This document shows positions 1 to 9,416 of a stretch of 50,894 nt of DNA, piece after piece. The stretch covers positions 1 through 50,894 of the IMG/VR virus record IMGVR_UViG_3300017743_004392; one strand, written 5' to 3'. Source of the stretch: a virus. Each line of letters begins with the position of its first letter. The stretch's first letter is position 1. The notes under the pieces were generated by a model. It had not been told where the DNA came from and did not search any database. It saw only the letters and a program-made list of their open reading frames with translations. The position numbers were made by a program, and so were the translations under genes.

Positions 1-813
1 CTAACTAAAAACCTAGCCCATAAAGGTAAAATCAACTATAGAGACGTTTACAAAAATAGTTGGGTGCATGATGGTGCTATTTCTACTTATCTATTAGGTA
101 ATAATCAAGTACCTCCTTCAAAAGATCCAAACCCAATTACTAAAAAGAATTACGCAGGAGCATATTTATTTTGTCCTAATGCGGGATTATACCGTTATAT
201 GTTCGATGAAGATTTAACTTCACTATATCCATCGATTATTATGTCTATTAATATAGGAAAAGAAACTTACATAGGTAGAATTTTCCCTGATGGAGACACA
301 GTACAAGAAAAAGTTGTAGTAGAAGGCAAAGAAATATTTAATTGTAGATTAGGTCTAAATGATCTTGAACAAATGGATCCTGATACTCAACTTGCAGTAG
401 AGAATGCTAAACGAGAACTCACCCAACTCCCAGTAAAAACTCTTATTAAAACTATTAAAGAAAAAAACATCCATGTCTCAGCAAATGGGGTTATGTTTAG
501 ACCAGATAAAAAATCTGTGTTATCTAAAGTTTTATCTAAATGGTTTGATGAAAGGGTAGAGTATAAAAATAAAATGAAAGAAGCTTACAAATCTAAAGAT
601 ACCGAAAAAGGTGAGTTTTGGCATTTGAGACAATATACAATGAAAATCTTACTTAATTCTTTATATGGTGCTCTGGCTTTATCAAGTTTTAGATTTGGTA
701 GTGTTATACTTTCTGAGGCCATTACATTGAGCGGTCAAAGAATAATTCAAGAAAGCTCTTTATTTGTAAATAGACATATGAATAAGGTATTAAAACAAGA
801 AACAATATCGTGA
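1..813 (+). CDS. 43A: DNA polymerase family B, N-terminal cistron (partial)
   Basis: The frame is open from base 1, so the true start lies upstream and the exonuclease domain is outside the window; the TGA is at 811-813. It carries the palm and fingers of a T4-type replicative polymerase: motif A (DLTSLYPSII, about residues 71-80 counted from base 1) and motif B (KILLNSLYG, about 215-223). The reading frame stops about 45 residues after motif B, before motif C, which is encoded in the gene at 1022. The protein should therefore assemble with that second chain to form an active site. It overlaps the next gene by four bases (GTGA), which suggests translational coupling. The call is firm from motifs and from clamp and clamp-loader neighbours. 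The split is real in the sequence as given; a sequencing frameshift is unlikely because a complete small gene lies between the halves. Confidence 0.93.
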   Translation, partial: LTKNLAHKGKINYRDVYKNSWVHDGAISTYLLGNNQVPPSKDPNPITKKNYAGAYLFCPNAGLYRYMFDEDLTSLYPSIIMSINIGKETYIGRIFPDGDTVQEKVVVEGKEIFNCRLGLNDLEQMDPDTQLAVENAKRELTQLPVKTLIKTIKEKNIHVSANGVMFRPDKKSVLSKVLSKWFDERVEYKNKMKEAYKSKDTEKGEFWHLRQYTMKILLNSLYGALALSSFRFGSVILSEAITLSGQRIIQESSLFVNRHMNKVLKQETIS

Positions 814-1025
814 AAGAATTAGATTTACACGGAGTAAAGCATATTGATGTTGAAAATAGATTAACTCAACATTTCTTCTGGGAACACCCAGATCAAAAAC
901 ATTATAAAATTGTTACAGGAAATTCTCAAAAAATGCAAGATCTTGTAACAGAATGGCTTGATGGATTAGAATACAAGTATTATATTCCGGCTAATAATTT
1001 AGGCGAAATACGAGTAGTTGCATGA
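810..1025 (+). CDS. small Smr-domain protein between polymerase halves
   Basis: A 71-residue protein starting at a GTG that overlaps the upstream TGA. It looks like a stand-alone Smr domain (the C-terminal domain of MutS2): LDLHG at residues 4-8, an ITGNS-like turn near 34-39 where Smr nucleases usually have HGxG, and a closing GEIRVV strand. Known Smr domains bind and often nick branched DNA or cleave RNA; the HGxG position is altered here, so catalysis is doubtful. It sits exactly between the two polymerase cistrons with 4-base overlaps on both sides (GTGA and ATGA), so all three are probably made from one message by coupled translation. It may act in replication or be a passenger that entered the polymerase gene. 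Family call fairly sure; role unknown. Confidence 0.75.
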   Translation: MKELDLHGVKHIDVENRLTQHFFWEHPDQKHYKIVTGNSQKMQDLVTEWLDGLEYKYYIPANNLGEIRVVA

Positions 1026-1948
1026 AGCATTTAGAGAAAGTACCTTGGTTTATATGTGATGAGGGAGATACTAATTTTATCTCTTATAATGATACAGATT
1101 CTCTTTATGTAAACGCCGAACCTCTAGTAAAACACCTTTATCCTGATTTTGAAGAAAAAACAGATGAAGAAAAAGATAATTTACTAGAGAGTGTTGCTTT
1201 AAAATACCAAGACCTTATAAATGAGTATTATGATGAAATGGCTAAGACCATTTTTAATATAAATGATTCTCACAGGTTTGAAATGAAAACCGAAGCGGTA
1301 ATTAGAGCAGCTTACTTTAGAGCAACCCGCAGATATGCTCAATGGATTACTAAATCAGAAGGAGTAGACGTAGATAAACTTGATATTAAAGGTTTAGAGT
1401 TTATGAAAGCTAATTTCCCACCTTTGTTTGGGAAGTTTTTTAATAAATTGTTAGACCAAGTCATAAGAGGAGTTACTCAAGATGAAATTGATAAGCAAAT
1501 CCACGAGTTTAGAGATAAAGTATTAACTAATTTAGATCCCGTACTGTTAGGTAACCCAACCTCAGTTAAAAAATTAAATAGTTATGTTGGTCCTAGACGA
1601 AATGGGGAAATACTCTCAAGTATAAAATTAGGTGCTCCTGCTCCTGTTAAGGCAGCTATTCGTTATAATGACCTTTTACATTTATGGAAATTAGATAAAA
1701 AATATTCCGAAATAGTACAAGGTGATAAAGTTAAGTGGGTATACCTAAAACCTAACTCATATAAAATAGAAACATTAGCATTCCTAGAATTTGACATCCC
1801 AGATAAGATTCGTACATTTATGGAAGAATATGTTGACAGAAAAAAATCATTTGATACTATTCTATTAAATAAATTAGAAGGATTCTATTCAGATTTAGAA
1901 TGGCAATTAAATGTTAACCCTTATATTAAACAATTTTTTAATTTTTAA
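1022..1948 (+). CDS. 43B: DNA polymerase family B, C-terminal cistron
   Basis: A 308-residue chain that completes the polymerase begun at base 1. Motif C (SYNDTDSLYV, catalytic DTDS at residues 24-27) is followed by the rest of the palm and a thumb region. The C-terminus is hydrophobic and aromatic (IKQFFNF), as expected for the peptide by which T4-type polymerases bind the sliding clamp, and the clamp gene follows with no gap. The ATG overlaps the Smr gene stop (ATGA). Split gene 43 is known in some T4-like phages, usually linked to homing endonucleases; an Smr gene at the junction is unusual as far as I know. Split and identity are seen directly; reassembly of the two chains is inferred. 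Confidence 0.93.
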   Translation: MKHLEKVPWFICDEGDTNFISYNDTDSLYVNAEPLVKHLYPDFEEKTDEEKDNLLESVALKYQDLINEYYDEMAKTIFNINDSHRFEMKTEAVIRAAYFRATRRYAQWITKSEGVDVDKLDIKGLEFMKANFPPLFGKFFNKLLDQVIRGVTQDEIDKQIHEFRDKVLTNLDPVLLGNPTSVKKLNSYVGPRRNGEILSSIKLGAPAPVKAAIRYNDLLHLWKLDKKYSEIVQGDKVKWVYLKPNSYKIETLAFLEFDIPDKIRTFMEEYVDRKKSFDTILLNKLEGFYSDLEWQLNVNPYIKQFFNF

Positions 1949-2689
1949 ATGTTAATAGAAAAAGTATTATTAAGTTCTGCTCTTAACAAGTATTACTTAG
2001 CAGGTGAATGTGAATCAGTTTTGTGGACTGTGGATAATAATGTCTTGAATGTAGACTTTAAACCCACTAATACAGCTGGTGTAGTTGGTAATTTAAGAGT
2101 GCCTAATTTTCCCTTAAAGGATTGTAAATTGGGAATTTATGAAACCTCTAAGTTATTAAAGCTCTTAAATGTAACTCAAAACCATTTACAACTTCACGTA
2201 GATAGTAATAAAGGAGTATCTACAAAATTATATATATCAGATTCATCATTTAATCTAGAGTATAATCTATCAGATATTCTTTTAATTTCAAAAATTCCTA
2301 CAGTTAATACACCACCTTCACATTTTGTTAATGCAGAATTGGAGATGACTGATATGGATAATTTAATTAAAGCTAAAAACGCTTTAGAGAACAAAAAAGT
2401 AATTATCAAATCGGCTAAAAGTATAGATGGTGATGATGTTTTAGAATTTATATTTGGTGAGGATTCTGCCTATTCAAATAGACTGACCTTTACTTTAGAG
2501 AATGTAAAATTTGAATCCGAAACTCAAATCGAATTACCCTTCAATTCCGAAATATTCTCCAGAATCTTACAAGTAAATAAAGATATGGAAAGGTTTAACA
2601 TTATTGTTTACAAAGAAGGATTGCTTAAACTAGAATTTTGGAGTGAAGAAGTTCAATCTGTTTATCACTTAGCTAGGCTTGACGATTAA
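1949..2689 (+). CDS. 45: sliding clamp (gp45-like)
   Basis: A 246-residue protein close in size to T4 gp45 (228). It has the repeating beta-alpha-beta pattern of PCNA-type clamps without conserved catalytic motifs. Identification rests on length, fold-like pattern and position directly after the polymerase and before clamp-loader genes. The ATG follows the polymerase TAA immediately. In T4 the clamp also activates late transcription with gp55 and gp33; a gp55-like sigma lies at 45.9 kb here, so the same coupling of replication to late transcription is likely. A promoter -33 element for the downstream genes lies inside its last codons. Confidence 0.85.
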   Translation: MLIEKVLLSSALNKYYLAGECESVLWTVDNNVLNVDFKPTNTAGVVGNLRVPNFPLKDCKLGIYETSKLLKLLNVTQNHLQLHVDSNKGVSTKLYISDSSFNLEYNLSDILLISKIPTVNTPPSHFVNAELEMTDMDNLIKAKNALENKKVIIKSAKSIDGDDVLEFIFGEDSAYSNRLTFTLENVKFESETQIELPFNSEIFSRILQVNKDMERFNIIVYKEGLLKLEFWSEEVQSVYHLARLDD

Positions 2690-2718: not shown

Positions 2719-2973
2719 ATGAATTCAATCAAAGACAAAGTAATTGAACCATATTTCATTAATTTGGAAAATGGTTATGTTTTAAACAAAATGGTCCAAT
2801 CTGGGGAATCAGATACCATTTATGAAAAATTTGTAGGTCATTATAGAAATTTAGATTCTTGTATTAAGGCAATGGCCCGAGATAAGATGATGAATAAATC
2901 TTATGATAGTCTACAAGGTTTCATCTCAGAATATCAACAAGTAGTAAATAGTTTAAATAAAGTTTTATGTTAG
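2719..2973 (+). CDS. hypothetical protein, 84 aa
   Basis: Not recognised. A mixed alpha/beta-looking soluble protein without Cys clusters, signal peptide or membrane segment. It is the first gene after a clear promoter and overlaps the GroES start by seven bases, so it is probably co-expressed with the chaperonins. Start is the first ATG after the promoter, 14 bases downstream of the TATATTCA box. Confidence 0.75.
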   Translation: MNSIKDKVIEPYFINLENGYVLNKMVQSGESDTIYEKFVGHYRNLDSCIKAMARDKMMNKSYDSLQGFISEYQQVVNSLNKVLC

Positions 2974-3299
2974 AAAATAAAAACTTATATGCATTGTATA
3001 ATGCCCTCATTGTAAAACCAATTGAGGAACAAGAAACCAATTATGGTTCTATTGTAGTCCCAGATCTGGGAAATGAAAAGAATAAAATCGGAGAGGTCGT
3101 AGATGTTGGGGAAGGACATTACTCTGTAACAGGGGCGTGGATTTCAACCACTTGTAAAAAAGGAGATTTAGTAGTTCTCCCAACCCAAGGTTTTACTAAG
3201 TTTGAATTTAAGGGAGAAGAGTATTATATTGGCCCTGAAAATCAAGTATTGGCAGTTATTAGTGAAGAAAAACCAAAATCACAAGAATTACCTTTTTAA
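2967..3299 (+). CDS. groES: GroES-like co-chaperonin
   Basis: A 110-residue protein with the Cpn10 layout: N-terminal strand ending VKPIEEQE, a glycine/serine mobile-loop region near residues 24-35 (TNYGSIVVPDL), then the IGEVVDVGEG strand, KKGDLVVLP, and a final EEYYIGPENQVLAVI strand. It would cap the chaperonin encoded immediately downstream. T4 supplies only its own co-chaperonin (gp31) and uses host GroEL; here both partners are present. It is slightly longer than cellular GroES (about 95) because of a polar C-terminal tail after residue 100. Confidence 0.88.
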   Translation: MLENKNLYALYNALIVKPIEEQETNYGSIVVPDLGNEKNKIGEVVDVGEGHYSVTGAWISTTCKKGDLVVLPTQGFTKFEFKGEEYYIGPENQVLAVISEEKPKSQELPF

Positions 3300-3302
3300 A
3301 TT

Positions 3303-4910
3303 ATGGCAAAACAGATAGTTATAGGACCCGAAGCAAGGGAAAAAGTAGTACAAGGTATTACTAAATTGGCAGACGCAGTTACGTCTACATTAGGACCAAA
3401 TGGTAGAAACGTACTCTACTCAGATGGTTATTCTACTTACTCTACTAAAGATGGAGTTACAGTAGCTAAAAATATTGAGTTTTCAGACCCATTTGAACAA
3501 ATTGGAGTAAGCTTAATTAAACAAGCAGCAGTTAAAACCGCAGATTATGTAGGTGATGGTACAACTACTTCTACATTACTAGCTTCTGAAATTGTAAATG
3601 CAGGAATGAAGCATCTTACAAATGGAGTAAATGCCGTTCAACTTAAAAGAGAAATTGATCAAGCTGTAGAAGCTGTTGTTGAATATCTCCAAACCGAACT
3701 CTCAGTGGATATCGAAAGTGAAGAGCAACTTGAAGATATTGCTACAATCTCTGCTAACGGAGATAGTAAATTAGGACAACTTATTGCTACTGCAATCCAA
3801 AAGGTAGGTAGAGATGGAGCAGTAGTTATAGAAGAGTCTAAAGCATATGATGATTCATTAGAAATTGTAGAAGGTATACAATTTGATAGAGGTTATAAAT
3901 CTCACTATTTTGTTACTGATAACAATAATATGACTAGTGTTTTAGAAAACCCCTACATTCTTATTGCAGATAATAAATTTACACAAGTAAAAGAACTTCT
4001 ACCTATATTAGAAGGTGTTTCAAACACAAACCGTCCCCTCCTGGTTATCGCTGATGATATTGAAGGAGAGGCTCTAGCAACCCTTATTGTTAATAAAATG
4101 AGAGGCACTCTTAAAGTTGCAGCTGTTAAAGCCCCAGACTTTGGAGACCGCAAAAAACTCATTATGGATGATATTGCTGTCCTAACAGGTGGTGAAGTAT
4201 ATTCCTCAGATAAAGGAATGAAGCTAGATAAATTTTCTTGGGATTGGTTTGGTGAAGCAAGAACAGTAACAATTACAAAAGATCAAACCACAATCGTAGA
4301 TGGAAAAGGACGAGATGAATCAATACAAACACGTATTGAAGAACTACAACAACAAATCGAAAAAGCACAAACCCCTTTCGAAACGGAAAAACTCCAAGAG
4401 AGACTTGCGAAATTCACAGGAGGAATCGGAATCGTAAATATCGGAGGTGCTACTGAAACTGAAGTAAAAGAGAAAAAAGATCGAGCAGAAGACGCTTTAT
4501 TTGCAACTCGTGCAGCCGTTGAATCAGGAATTGTTCCTGGTGGTGGGTGTGCATTACTTAAAGCTTCTAAGGAGGTAGATTCTAAAACCTTAGGAGGTGA
4601 AATTGTTGAGAGTATTTGTCGACTTCCATCCACAAAAATCCTAAGGAATGCAGGGTGTGATGATTACGAAATCTATAGTATATTGAATGGAATTTCTTTA
4701 AGTAAAGAGGATTGGATGGGATATAACCTATCAGTAGGAAATATAGACACCATTGATTTTTATGAAGAAGGTATTTTGGATCCAACTAAGGTAACAGTAT
4801 CAGCTTTACAAAATGCTTCCTCGATTGCCGGAACTATATTATTGACAGAAACAGTTATTGCAGACGAACCTAAAGACGAAGATGAGCAAGAACCATTCCC
4901 TATGGGTTGA
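3303..4910 (+). CDS. groEL: GroEL-like chaperonin
   Basis: A full-length 535-residue group I chaperonin. Visible landmarks are the N-terminal TLGPNGRNVLYSD, the nucleotide-binding GDGTTTSTLLA, the apical stretch around GYKSHYFVTDN with PYILIADNK, LLVIADDIEGEALATLIVNK, APDFGDRKK, and the C-terminal DRAEDALFATRAAVESGIVPGGG that contains the catalytic Asp equivalent to D398. The C-terminus ends EPFPMG instead of the usual GGM repeats. It should fold phage (for example capsid) or host proteins together with the adjacent GroES. The 3' end overlaps the clamp-loader gene by 29 bases, placing chaperonin and replication genes in one transcript. Confidence 0.96.
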   Translation: MAKQIVIGPEAREKVVQGITKLADAVTSTLGPNGRNVLYSDGYSTYSTKDGVTVAKNIEFSDPFEQIGVSLIKQAAVKTADYVGDGTTTSTLLASEIVNAGMKHLTNGVNAVQLKREIDQAVEAVVEYLQTELSVDIESEEQLEDIATISANGDSKLGQLIATAIQKVGRDGAVVIEESKAYDDSLEIVEGIQFDRGYKSHYFVTDNNNMTSVLENPYILIADNKFTQVKELLPILEGVSNTNRPLLVIADDIEGEALATLIVNKMRGTLKVAAVKAPDFGDRKKLIMDDIAVLTGGEVYSSDKGMKLDKFSWDWFGEARTVTITKDQTTIVDGKGRDESIQTRIEELQQQIEKAQTPFETEKLQERLAKFTGGIGIVNIGGATETEVKEKKDRAEDALFATRAAVESGIVPGGGCALLKASKEVDSKTLGGEIVESICRLPSTKILRNAGCDDYEIYSILNGISLSKEDWMGYNLSVGNIDTIDFYEEGILDPTKVTVSALQNASSIAGTILLTETVIADEPKDEDEQEPFPMG

Positions 4911-5805
4911 GAAGTATAGGAGCAATTCCCTACAAGAATTTGTAGGGAATCCTTCTATTAAGGAATCTATTAAGTTGTTTATAGAACAAAATGATATTCA
5001 AAATCTATTGTTCTATGGCCCCGCAGGCACAGGTAAAACTACTCTAGCTAAGCTAATTGTAGATAATATTAACTGCGACCACATCTACATCAACGCGAGT
5101 GATGAAAGGGGGATTGACACAATTAGAGATAAAGTAGTTAGTTTTGCTTCGGCTGCTTCGTTTACCCCTCTAAAGGTAGTAATTCTAGATGAGGCTGATT
5201 TTCTTACACTTAATGCACAAGCATCTTTGAGGAATGTAATTGAGACATTCTCACGTTCAACAAGATTTATTTTAACTTGTAATTTTGTAGAACGTATCAT
5301 TGACCCAATTCAATCAAGGTGCCAAACATTTAAAATCCTCCCACCATCTAAATCCCAGACTGCATCACATGTAAATGAGATTTTAGAGAAGGAAGAAGTA
5401 AAAGTTGAGGTAAATGATCTAAAAACACTAGTAAATCAATTTTATCCTGATTTAAGGAAGATGCTTAACACATCCCAAGCATTCTCTAAAACAGGTACAC
5501 TAGTATTAGATACAACAGCAATAGCATCTTCAAATTATATGTTTGAGGTACTTAAGGAATTAAAATCAAAACCAAACTTTAAGAAAATTAGACAAATAAT
5601 TCAAGACTCAAACGTGTCTGATTACGAGGGATTTTATAGATTCCTATACGATAATGCTTCAGAGTATGCATCAGGTAAAGAAGGTACAATAGCAATCCTA
5701 CTAAACAAGTATGCATATGAAGCAAATTTTAAAATAGATAAAGAAATCAATCTTATGGCTTTAATTTCGGAAATAATCAGCCATACTAAACCACAGGTAA
5801 TATGA
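4882..5805 (+). CDS. 44: clamp-loader ATPase subunit (gp44-like)
   Basis: A 307-residue AAA+ protein related to RFC small subunits and T4 gp44. It opens with LWVEKYR, the hallmark of this family, followed by Walker A GPAGTGKTT (residues 46-54), Walker B ILDEAD (101-106), and the SRC box with the arginine finger (145-147). The ATG at 4882 is chosen because MSKNHSLWVEKYR is the family N-terminus; an upstream in-frame ATG at 4858 would add eight residues inside groEL. It loads the gp45-like clamp with the small subunit at 6034. Confidence 0.95.
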   Translation: MSKNHSLWVEKYRSNSLQEFVGNPSIKESIKLFIEQNDIQNLLFYGPAGTGKTTLAKLIVDNINCDHIYINASDERGIDTIRDKVVSFASAASFTPLKVVILDEADFLTLNAQASLRNVIETFSRSTRFILTCNFVERIIDPIQSRCQTFKILPPSKSQTASHVNEILEKEEVKVEVNDLKTLVNQFYPDLRKMLNTSQAFSKTGTLVLDTTAIASSNYMFEVLKELKSKPNFKKIRQIIQDSNVSDYEGFYRFLYDNASEYASGKEGTIAILLNKYAYEANFKIDKEINLMALISEIISHTKPQVI

Positions 5806-6044
5806 ACCAACCACAACAACAAGGTCCAAATATCGACTTTAAAAACACAACAGCCCTTAATACACCATCAGGGGGAAAAATTTGGCAACAAGGAGTAATC
5901 CTTAGAAAAGTATCTAAATTTGTAACAGGAACTTCTGATGATGCTATTCTCCCCATTCCGGTATTTTACGATCCTGAAACAAATGAAATTTTGAAAGAAG
6001 GTGTACCTAAAGAACTAGTGGACGTAATTTTCAATGAAGAGTAA
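5802..6044 (+). CDS. hypothetical protein, 80 aa
   Basis: Not recognised. A small protein with a Gln/Pro-rich N-terminus (MNQPQQQGPN) and a compact C-terminal half containing PIPVFYDPETNEIL. It overlaps the clamp-loader genes at both ends (four bases upstream, eleven downstream), so it is made with them. A role near the replisome is suggested only by position. Confidence 0.75.
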   Translation: MNQPQQQGPNIDFKNTTALNTPSGGKIWQQGVILRKVSKFVTGTSDDAILPIPVFYDPETNEILKEGVPKELVDVIFNEE

Positions 6045-6465
6045 ACCTGTAAATATTTTTACAATTCTAGATTATCTTACCTACAGTAAGAAGCCATACG
6101 AGCAACTTACAGATGAGGAAAAGGAGGTGATAAATCCCTATATGTTACATAGATTCATCTCCATGAACGAGAATTATGTAGGTATAACTAATCTAGCACA
6201 AAACTTCCCCCCAACAGAAAAGGAAAAAATATATAAATTCTATTTTGAATTCATTCCTAAAAATAAAGTGTACTTAAAGTATATTAAATCAAATAAAAAG
6301 AATCTAAATTCAAAACTATTAGAAATTCTATCTAATTATTTTAAAGTCTCGTCCCGAGAAGTTTTAGATTATATTCCTTTGTTGGGGGGATCAATAGTGA
6401 AAGAAATATTAGGAAATTATAATTTAGAGAAAAAAGAAGTTAAAGAACTTTTAAAGGGCTTTTAA
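6034..6465 (+). CDS. 62: clamp-loader small subunit (gp62-like)
   Basis: A 143-residue protein with the pattern of T4-like gp62: an N-terminal helix (IFTILDYLTYSKKP), the NPYMLHRFISMN segment, a Phe/Lys-rich YKFYFEFIPKNKVYLKYIK middle, and a C-terminal helical SREVLDYIPLL...KELLKGF portion. Gp62 is the non-ATPase subunit that completes the clamp loader with four gp44 chains. It is a little shorter than T4 gp62 (187). Placement after a gp44 homologue matches T4-type order. No regA homologue follows, unlike T4. Confidence 0.8.
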   Translation: MKSKPVNIFTILDYLTYSKKPYEQLTDEEKEVINPYMLHRFISMNENYVGITNLAQNFPPTEKEKIYKFYFEFIPKNKVYLKYIKSNKKNLNSKLLEILSNYFKVSSREVLDYIPLLGGSIVKEILGNYNLEKKEVKELLKGF

Positions 6466-6699: not shown

Positions 6700-8121
6700 A
6701 TGGAAAACAAGTTTCGTTATAAAGAACAGAAAGATCGAAAAAAGATACTTCTGTTAGGAGATGACATCAGATTACATTCCGGAGTAGCAACCGTAGCTAG
6801 AGAGATAGTTATTCAAACTGCCCACCATTTCAATTGGCTAACCATTGGGGCAGCTATTAATCACCCCGAAAACGGAAAACGATTTGATATATCCGGAGAT
6901 GTAAATGAGCAAGCCAAAATTAAAGATAGTTGGGTTCATGTTTTATGTAACAACGGATATGGAGACCCCGATTTAATTAGAACCATCATTAGGGAAGAAA
7001 AACCTGATGCATTGTTTTTAATTACAGATCCACGCTATTATACTTGGTTGTTTCAAATTGAAAATGAGATTAGGAAAACCACCCCAATAGTATATCTAAA
7101 CATTTGGGATGACCTTCCAGCCCCAAACTACAATAGAGCATTTTATGAGTCATGTGATGCGTTGTTGGCTATCTCAAAGCAAACAAAGTTTATCAATGAG
7201 ATTGTGCTGGGAGAAAAGGCTAATGATAAGACAATTAGGTATGTTCCTCATGGTTTGAATCCGGAAATCTATAAGCCAACAGAGGTTCCTGCTGATTTTA
7301 GAAAACAAGTAGTGGGAGATAAGGAGTTTGTAGTGTTCTTTAACTCGAGGAATATCCGTAGGAAATCTGTTCCGGATCTAATTTGGGCATATAGGGAATT
7401 CATTGAAAGACTAACAGTTGAGGAAAGGAAAAAATGTACTCTATTGTTACATACTCAACCCGTTGATGAAAATGGAACTGATTTACCTAAGGTAGTTGAA
7501 ACCCTAAACAATATTGAAGGGTTTGATGTAAGGTTCTCTCATCAAAAACTATCAGCAGAACAACTAAATTGGTTATATAATATAGCTGATGTTACTTGTT
7601 TGTTAACCTCAAATGAGGGATGGGGACTTACCTTAACTGAATCTATGTTAGCGGGAACTATGATTTTAGCTAACGTAACAGGAGGTATGCAAGATCAAAT
7701 GGGATTCACTGATGAGAAAGGGAATTGGTTTACACCATCAAAAGATGTTCCTTCAAACAATACAGGAAGATATACCAAACATGGAAAGTGGGCCCTCCCG
7801 GTTTACCCATCATCCCGTTCAATTCAAGGTTCTCCTGCCACACCTTACATTTGGGATGATAGATGTAATCCCTTAGATGTTACTCAAAAACTAGAAGAAT
7901 TATATTGGATGGTTAGTAAAGAGGAAAGAAAAGAAAATGGGTTAGCAGGAAGGGAATGGTGCTTGTCTGAGCAAGCCGGATTTAATACATTCGCTCAAGC
8001 CCAAAGGGTAATTGAGGCAATCGATGATTTGTTTGAGAGTTGGACCCCTAGAGAGGAATTTGAGTTTTTTAAAGTAGATGGTTTACCTGATAACACCACA
8101 AAACATAAATTAGTTTATTAA
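6700..8121 (+). CDS. glycosyltransferase, GT4-like
   Basis: A 473-residue GT-B-fold transferase. The N-terminal Rossmann half opens LLLGDDIRLHSGVATVAREI; the C-terminal half has the donor-binding NSRNIRRKSVPDLIWAY and the retaining-enzyme motif E-x7-E in NEGWGLTLTESMLAG. It probably transfers a nucleotide-activated sugar. It is first in the sugar block and its TAA overlaps the next ATG by one base. Tandem GT4 genes followed by a polysaccharide cluster suggest assembly of a multi-sugar glycan. Confidence 0.88.
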   Translation: MENKFRYKEQKDRKKILLLGDDIRLHSGVATVAREIVIQTAHHFNWLTIGAAINHPENGKRFDISGDVNEQAKIKDSWVHVLCNNGYGDPDLIRTIIREEKPDALFLITDPRYYTWLFQIENEIRKTTPIVYLNIWDDLPAPNYNRAFYESCDALLAISKQTKFINEIVLGEKANDKTIRYVPHGLNPEIYKPTEVPADFRKQVVGDKEFVVFFNSRNIRRKSVPDLIWAYREFIERLTVEERKKCTLLLHTQPVDENGTDLPKVVETLNNIEGFDVRFSHQKLSAEQLNWLYNIADVTCLLTSNEGWGLTLTESMLAGTMILANVTGGMQDQMGFTDEKGNWFTPSKDVPSNNTGRYTKHGKWALPVYPSSRSIQGSPATPYIWDDRCNPLDVTQKLEELYWMVSKEERKENGLAGREWCLSEQAGFNTFAQAQRVIEAIDDLFESWTPREEFEFFKVDGLPDNTTKHKLVY

Positions 8122-9416
8122 TGAAGAATACGTTTTATATAAGTTGTCCTATTGATACTTACAGTGGGTATGGTAGTCGAAGTAGAGATTTAGTAAAAAC
8201 AATTATTGAATCTAACAAGTATGATGTTAAAATTATCCCACAAAGGTGGGGTAATACCTCTTGGGGTTATATTAAAGACCATAGTGAAAAATGGGGATTT
8301 TTAGAGCAATATCTCTATAAGCAACCTCAACTTAATCAACAACCTGATATTTGGGCTCAAATTACTGTACCTAATGAGTTTCAACCCGTAGGAAAATACA
8401 ACATTGGTATTACAGCTGGGATGGAAACTACCGGAGTGCATCACACTTGGGTAGAGGGTGTAAATAGAATGAATTTAACATTAGTTCCCTCGGAACATTC
8501 TAAAAACTCATTTATTAACTCCCATTTCCAGCAACAGAACCCACAAGGTCAAGTAGTTGGAGAGGTTAAAGTAAACAAACCAATTGAGGTATTGTTTGAG
8601 GGAGTTGATTTAGATACATTTGTAAGTAAAAAAGGTAATCTTCCTTTGGATATTAAAGAAGATTTTGCTTATCTGTGTGTGGGTCATTGGTTGCAAGGGG
8701 ATTTTGGTGAGGATAGAAAAAACATTGGCTACACAATTAAAGCATTTCTAGAGGTATTTAAAAATAAAAAGAAAGCTCCCGCACTCATTTTGAAAACCCC
8801 AGTTGGTAATTCCTCCTATATGGGAAGAGATGAGTTAGTAAAAAGAGTAGAACAACTTAAATCCTCTGTAAACGCAACTCGTTTACCTTCTATCTATATT
8901 TTGAATGGAGATTTATCTGAGGAACAATTAAATGAGCTCTATAATCATCCTAAAGTAAAAGCATTTATGATGTTTACTAAAGGTGAAGGTTATGGTAGAC
9001 CATTGTTAGAATTTTCATTATCCAAAAAACCTATTTTAACTACAAACTGGTCTGGTCATATAGATTTTTTAAAGAAAGATTTTTGTTGTTTGGTTGATGG
9101 AGAATTAAAGAATGTTCATTCATCAGCGGCACAAAAAGATATGATCCTCCCGGAGTTCCAATGGTTTACCCCTAATGATGGTGAAGTTGGTTTTTATATT
9201 AAAGATGTTTATGAGAATTATAAAAAGTATCAAGAGTTGGCTAAGAGACAGGCTTATCATTCCAAAGAAAACTTTAGCCTTTCAAAAATGGGAGAAAAAG
9301 TTATGGAGATTCTAGAACAAAATGTTCCTGAAATCGCTAAAGAGGTAAAGCTTGAACTCCCTAAATTGAAACTTCCTAAATTGAAAAAACCTTCTTCATT
9401 CCCAAATTTAAGCTAA
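8121..9416 (+). CDS. glycosyltransferase, GT4-like, with Lys-Pro tail
   Basis: A 431-residue GT-B-type transferase. It opens with YSGYGSRSRDLVKTI, the usual acceptor-side loop, and has the donor site GEGYGRPLLEFSLSKKPI (E-x7-E). The last 25 residues repeat LPKLK-type units and end in a Ser/Pro-rich tail, perhaps a membrane or partner contact. It follows a similar enzyme directly, so the two probably add successive sugars. Confidence 0.87.
   Translation: MKNTFYISCPIDTYSGYGSRSRDLVKTIIESNKYDVKIIPQRWGNTSWGYIKDHSEKWGFLEQYLYKQPQLNQQPDIWAQITVPNEFQPVGKYNIGITAGMETTGVHHTWVEGVNRMNLTLVPSEHSKNSFINSHFQQQNPQGQVVGEVKVNKPIEVLFEGVDLDTFVSKKGNLPLDIKEDFAYLCVGHWLQGDFGEDRKNIGYTIKAFLEVFKNKKKAPALILKTPVGNSSYMGRDELVKRVEQLKSSVNATRLPSIYILNGDLSEEQLNELYNHPKVKAFMMFTKGEGYGRPLLEFSLSKKPILTTNWSGHIDFLKKDFCCLVDGELKNVHSSAAQKDMILPEFQWFTPNDGEVGFYIKDVYENYKKYQELAKRQAYHSKENFSLSKMGEKVMEILEQNVPEIAKEVKLELPKLKLPKLKKPSSFPNLS

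Follow-up and report, generated by a model that had tools for sequence, protein, structure and literature searches.

A T4-type DNA polymerase divided between motifs B and C in an uncultured viral clade, with a seam that probably serves as a cargo slot

Introduction

The window, by which we mean the whole stretch of 50,894 nucleotides analysed here (IMG/VR virus record IMGVR_UViG_3300017743_004392), opens with a T4-type family B DNA polymerase whose reading frame ends after motif B and is taken up again just before motif C, beyond a small gene for an Smr-like protein. The locus poses two questions: can a replicase interrupted between its catalytic motifs be a working enzyme, and what, if anything, does the small protein between its halves contribute to it? 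The initial annotation had suggested that the Smr protein may help to join the two polymerase chains, or may mark an old invasion. Here we argue that the locus very probably represents an ancient, fixed two-chain polymerase (gp43), the seam of which has become a slot for cargo genes.

Results and Discussion

The two halves and their break point

Open reading frames, motifs and the profile of PHROG 262 agree on where the polymerase frame ends and resumes, and they bear out the initial reading (Table 1). In the numbering of the N-terminal piece, motif A (DLTSLYPSI) occupies residues 71-79 and motif B (KILLNSLYG) residues 215-223, and the piece ends in ...FVNRHMNKVLKQETIS at its stop codon. The C-terminal half begins with MKHLEKVPWFICDEGDTNFISYNDTDS, 23 residues before motif C (NDTDS, residues 23-27), and continues through the remaining palm and the thumb. 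Against PHROG 262 (DNA polymerase, 856 positions) the two pieces cover positions 333-569 (E 1e-56) and 565-852 (E 1.5e-48), so that nothing is missing between the halves. On solved structures of RB69 gp43 the alignment of the N-piece runs out near residue 609 and that of the C-piece sets in near residue 608, so that the break falls in the segment linking the palm helix behind motif B to the motif C hairpin. The catalytic aspartates D71 of the N-piece and D24 and D26 of the C-piece are invariant in 26 relatives, and motifs A, B and C are all present; at the level of sequence, this directly shows that a single active site has its catalytic residues spread over two chains.

Table 1. Features of the locus in the window and of the GIY-YIG-type genes found at the same break point in related loci
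Feature	Position	Strand	Basis or remark
N-half, T4-type family B DNA polymerase	1..813	+	5'-truncated by contig start; PHROG 262, motifs
Smr-fold protein, 71 aa, GTG start	810..1025	+	relatives' Pfam Smr matches, predicted fold
GTGA stop-start overlap, N-half/Smr	810..813	+	sequence
ATGA stop-start overlap, Smr/C-half	1022..1025	+	sequence
C-half of polymerase, 308 aa, ATG start	1022..1948	+	PHROG 262, motif C
Sliding clamp, gp45-like	1949..2689	+	PHROG 223; abuts C-half stop codon directly
Clamp loader large subunit, gp44-like	4858..5805	+	PHROG 168
Clamp loader small subunit, gp62-like	6034..6465	+	PHROG 225
GIY-YIG-type gene just before motif C	L153:2005-2637		
GIY-YIG-type gene just before motif C	L154:2502-3131		
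GIY-YIG-type gene just before motif C	L152:3870-4499		

The exonuclease region is cut off in the window. Contigs L002 and L003 repeat the window's three-gene order at protein identities of 89-100%, and their full N-half of 572 residues carries the 3'-5' exonuclease motifs FFDIEIEMGG, YNSDYFDIPYL and YNFRDVEIL (assigned by eye); 572 plus 308 residues compare with 882 in the intact polymerase of L233. Among the window, L002 and L003, both halves are under purifying selection, with dN/dS of 0.13 for the N-half and 0.08 for the C-half. An assembly or sequencing error, or a polymerase gene in decay, might be suspected from the fact that the polymerase begins at a contig end; the arrangement is, however, repeated in independent contigs and 203 locus records, and dN/dS lies well below 1 on both halves, so that we give such an explanation next to no credence. 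Assembly error, the objection that the initial annotation had itself put forward, is excluded by the same recurrence in independent contigs.

Two adjacent, conserved cistrons on the same strand are also what is seen for the split gp43 of Aeromonas phages 25 and 44RR, and by analogy we infer that the working enzyme is a non-covalent assembly of both chains. In phage 25 the 43A and 43B products purify together and are active in polymerisation (PMC2988022), which provides a functional precedent, albeit with the cut elsewhere. Chain 1 comprises the exonuclease, the opening portion of the palm (motif A) and the fingers (motif B), and chain 2 motif C, the remaining palm and the thumb. The aspartates that motifs A and C provide for catalysis therefore reside on separate polypeptides and would be brought together by non-covalent association.

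Conceivably, the halves could instead be joined covalently by way of an intein, an intron or programmed frameshifting, given that PolB genes with split inteins have been described (PMC4104785, PMC10189870) and that gene 43 of phage 25 has an intron. However, no Rfam match was obtained in the window's seam or in ten related loci, and an intein would find no room, as the N-half stops a few residues past its last helix and Met1 of the C-half is invariant. Moreover, most loci have whole genes of other function in the seam, and the empty seams show no apparent conserved slippery heptamer in the sequence listing. We therefore find covalent joining scarcely credible.

Distribution and age of the split

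Relatives of the C-half were taken from IMG/VR and from genome bins, and profile searches sorted the two-part loci into split and intact ones. This gave 203 locus records in the window's uncultured clade, in which some contigs are counted twice and which reduce to 55 representatives at 90% identity. A search for the same split in relatives, as the initial annotation had advised, thus found it in all 203 records, 192 of them with ATGA at the C-half start; no re-fused locus was found among the 203. The nearest relatives (L229/L228 type, comprising L233-L243 and L313) are intact, with a linker before motif C that by eye measures 40 residues, versus 38 for both split ends summed.

In a tree of 87 representatives, the 55 split ones are grouped with an SH-aLRT of 85, below the value of 95 by which we mark a node as supported, and the split clade as a single unit is thus less than certain; the intact sister group beside it has a support of 96. 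The next group out, of the L087 type, is intact but for three rows, which are GIY-YIG-associated splits. As part of our preferred explanation, and with the same high confidence that we place in it as a whole, we consider the split to be old and to have arisen once on the stem of the clade, although the split may have arisen a second time, or the intact sister group may have re-fused its polymerase. The single event would have hit the linker that precedes motif C at the cost of hardly any sequence, and would have left an ATGA overlap at which re-initiation could couple the translation of both chains.

Splits associated with GIY-YIG genes

Most members of the L087-type group are intact at the break point, but four loci (L151, L152, L153 and L154) carry 0.7-2.3 kb of intervening DNA there, and each gap contains one ORF of about 210-230 residues. 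The ORF of L154 matches the Pfam GIY-YIG family with an E-value of 9.7e-5, above the curated cut-off, and that of L152 with 0.0013, below the cut-off; the L153 ORF is a clear GIY-YIG homologue by sequence, and the L151 ORF, with no Pfam match, is GIY-YIG-like only by eye. The C-part restarts with an ATG before motif C, and the break point is that of the window's clade to within a few residues, from which these loci differ in the GIY-YIG gene that fills the gap and in belonging to a group that is mostly intact. Between L153 and L154 the dS of the GIY-YIG gene is 0.39, compared with 0.89-1.99 for the polymerase halves, as would be expected of a self-moving gene, and the halves themselves are under purifying selection (dN/dS 0.06-0.12). 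The splits in L151-L154 are recent and independent of the split in the window's clade.

Extending these four cases to the window's clade, we propose that such splits likely start with a homing endonuclease that invades the break point and is later lost. Inspection of the clade's seams, with Pfam run on a few representatives, recognised no endonuclease gene in them, and this split could thus just as well go back to a plain frameshift within the long linker, with the ATGA overlap as its trace.

The seam and its changing contents

Where the seam is empty, it usually consists of nothing but an ATGA in which stop and start overlap; among the first 112 non-redundant loci, the number of genes in it ranges from none to six. 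The commonest families there are KQSIR (95 ORFs), DUF6165/DUF4254 (40) and Smr (22), followed by cupin-like (17, named by reading), cytidylyltransferase-like (15) and DUF2452 genes (5), with aminotransferase-like and sugar-metabolism-like genes, likewise named by reading, as rarer finds; the Pfam names of three families were taken from representatives. In the full set of 203 loci, KQSIR is present in 157 and Smr in 39, both in 32 and neither in 39, and 31 seams are gene-free. The spacing at both junctions, N-half to cargo and cargo to C-half, is most commonly -4 or -1.

The turnover of these genes is illustrated by L063 and L065, the flanks of which are 96% and 99% identical: L065 carries an additional gene of 123 residues exactly from ATGA to ATGA, and the seam of L063 reads ...ACGCTATGAAACATT... 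without the insert. L303 and L288 form a second near-identical pair that differs in the seam, with a left end that is no simple ATGA-to-ATGA step. Altogether, 154 locus pairs (some redundant) have seams of unequal length between C-flanks at least 88% and N-flanks at least 85% identical, and the tree calls for at least five changes of state for Smr and at least seven for KQSIR. Invasion of the seam, which the initial annotation had considered, has proved a fruitful theme in the form of cargo turnover between near-identical flanks. On our preferred reading the seam would be a cargo slot in which small genes (Smr, KQSIR, DUF6165/DUF4254, cupin-like, cytidylyltransferase-like, DUF2452 and sugar-metabolism-like) are gained and lost from ATGA to ATGA while the halves stay undisturbed.

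In L053, L055 and L057 the N-half is extended and the run ends ...PGERMTVVGTSFSLGTSESLER before TAATGA, which may mark the place where a cargo gene was deleted. At L027:1834-2093 there is no open KQSIR frame where relatives have one, and a fused ORF of 119 residues continues into Smr, which suggests cargo decaying in place.

The Smr protein

That the small gene in the window's seam is Smr-like is upheld by the Pfam matches of its relatives, by its predicted fold and by its LDLH motif. The window's copy alone stays below the reporting limit, with no Smr match in Pfam or PHROGs; 16 of its 21 relatives match Pfam Smr (PF01713; best E 1e-5). Its AlphaFold2 model (pLDDT 90.8) has human Smr 3fau as the first-ranking Foldseek match (probability 1.00, but E 6.5e-3), and the VIA comparison with the Smr domain of T. 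thermophilus MutS2 (2zqe) gives a Z of 11.0 and an rmsd of 1.5 over 70 residues. The protein thus shares its fold with E. coli YdaL, SmrB and the Smr domain of MutS2 (VIA Z 8.8-11.0) and its LDLH with SmrB, D5, L6 and H7 of this LDxH motif being invariant in 21 Smr sequences. It differs from stand-alone Smr proteins in its mere 71 residues, in the lack of an N-terminal extension and in the HGxG/TGxG motif, which is absent: most of the 21 sequences have TGNS there, with S39 invariant, and nuclease activity must therefore not be assumed. Non-conservation of the frame, a second objection raised at the outset, is excluded by a dN/dS of 0.04-0.38 among the window, L002 and L003, indicative of purifying selection.

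Should the Smr protein be a third subunit or an assembly factor that joins the polymerase chains, its position between the halves, the overlapping frames and the conservation of its own frame would all make sense. Yet the identical split occurs without Smr in most loci (Smr is absent from about 80% of them, and 31 seams are free of any gene), and Smr relatives are found in unrelated places: in a separate scan of 80 Smr loci, 42 lay between polymerase halves and 35 had no polymerase within the flank covered. The GTGA and ATGA overlaps, which are seen in the sequence just as first described, had been taken as coupling, from which a joining role might follow, but 8 of 79 gene junctions in the window are 4-bp overlaps and 33 of 79 abut or overlap (both counts from a rough ORF set), and overlaps this common across the genome say little about a protein complex. 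A joining role for Smr, as initially conjectured, is consequently very improbable.

Smr domains nick DNA, and in all three Smr subfamilies nicking or endonuclease activity has been demonstrated, branched DNA being preferred (PMC3200294); SmrB cuts mRNA between collided ribosomes, its DLH residues being involved in catalysis (PMC10897456). Fold and LDLH make it probable that the window's protein has a function of its own, as a small endonuclease or in RNA binding, and is not a polymerase subunit; it most likely acts on nucleic acid independently, its activity being uncertain given TGNS.

The nicking activity and branched-DNA preference of Smr subfamilies raise the alternative that Smr is a mobile nickase gene which caused or exploits the split and spreads in the manner of a homing endonuclease. 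The presence of Smr at several genomic places would fit, as would the fact that, between the window and L002 (L002:4789-5004), Smr differs at 13 of 213 sites and the flanking halves at 22 of 1732 (p 4e-5), a far greater divergence that points to an exchange of alleles or a separate history. Genes downstream of the clamp diverge between these two as well, however, which weakens the case for an exchange of Smr alone between near-identical phages. Furthermore, the rarity and derived placement of Smr in the clade, with none in the L244 group at the base of the split loci, disqualify it as the cause of the split, and its 71 residues include no sequence-specific recognition part; we thus hold a mobile Smr nickase to be unlikely.

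Away from polymerases, Smr lies in L098:2705-6098 between a QueE-like gene (named by reading) and folE, near queC. In L087-like phages (L098, L084 and L103) it adjoins queC, QueE-like and folE genes, a cluster of the 7-deazaguanine type.

The KQSIR protein

The commonest seam gene encodes a protein of about 87 residues (A4 family; for example L004:3824-4087 and L077:4362-4622), here named KQSIR after its pattern MxLKKQSIRxG...SExWSExQExFFRKMLKQGGxFxI. It is a single-domain alpha/beta protein that matched no Pfam or PHROG family, and its model, of middling quality (pLDDT 77.2), gave no useful fold match in the PDB.

KQSIR rather than Smr could be the functional partner of the split polymerase, either by forming a third subunit or by regulating assembly. 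It occupies 157 of the 203 seams, is a single-domain protein without known relatives, and in a separate scan 69 of 80 KQSIR loci lay in the polymerase seam (65) or in a locus showing one polymerase half only (4). Against this, neither the window nor any empty seam has KQSIR, further split loci lack it as well, and 11 of the 80 loci have no polymerase in a flank of about 1.8-4 kb on the shorter side. Such a partnership is therefore rather unlikely, and as Smr and KQSIR are both found away from polymerases, neither is bound to the polymerase. A further idea, to which we give some weight but which we doubt, is that the seam is used and not just tolerated: the ATGA within an essential gene would be a docking point that takes promoter-less genes in register, and KQSIR an early, semi-permanent resident that has by now become a part or a regulator of the two-chain polymerase.

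Relation to known split enzymes

The explanation that we favour, a two-chain gp43 with a cargo slot, does not stand alone. Gene 43 itself is already known in a split form, as phages 25 and 44RR also have a T4-type PolB in two adjacent cistrons (43A/43B). In phage 25 (NC_008208) a homing endonuclease lies between 43A and 43B, whereas the window's clade has changing cargo instead. In phages 25 and 44RR the cut lies within the fingers, upstream of motif B (the last residue of 43A is 498, and 43B starts ahead of KILINSLYG), while the window's clade, which is uncultured and distinct from these phages, is cut between motifs B and C, and its split is clade-wide. What appears to be new is the break point between motifs B and C, its fixation throughout a large clade and a seam with changing cargo, of which we found no description in the literature searched (subscription papers, notably those of Petrov and Karam on gene 43, lay outside its scope).

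In Methanothermobacter, too, the split separates motif C from the rest of the polymerase. Family B replicases made as two chains are likewise known from the Methanobacteriales (Kelman 1999) and from Nanoarchaeum equitans; these are, however, archaeal PolB3 enzymes without cargo genes. The split of the Methanobacteriales is regarded as an intein remnant (PMC4104785), and the Nanoarchaeum halves are spliced by a split intein, of which the window's seam has no sign. NrdA of phage Aeh1 and the T4 topoisomerase are further essential enzymes that were cut by a free-standing homing endonuclease and work as two chains (PMC2988022), although they are other enzymes, with the endonuclease still present and no cargo slot.

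Split replicases have previously been isolated cases, and here a large clade of environmental, aquatic phages has a replicase cut between its catalytic motifs as the norm. With an intact sister group, empty and filled seams and an independent endonuclease case at hand, the route from one gene to two becomes directly testable, and biochemistry gains a large supply of natural polymerases in which two chains share an active site. The analysis also corrects automatic annotation, which would otherwise call each half a fragment, and gives a name to KQSIR, an abundant protein without a family that is tied to a replisome operon.

Genomic surroundings

As to cultured relatives, the closest phage record is Microcystis phage Mel-JY01, at only 36% identity. 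As regards the host, relatives were binned with Flavobacteria and one with a Pelagibacter bin, which is weak evidence. Between the clamp and the clamp loader, within the replication gene cluster, the window carries a GroES-like gene (2967-3299, Pfam Cpn10) and, adjoining it, a GroEL-like gene (3303-4910, named by reading). Two glycosyltransferase genes follow 3' of the clamp loader (window 6700-9416), and several cargo genes in the seams of relatives look sugar-related as well.
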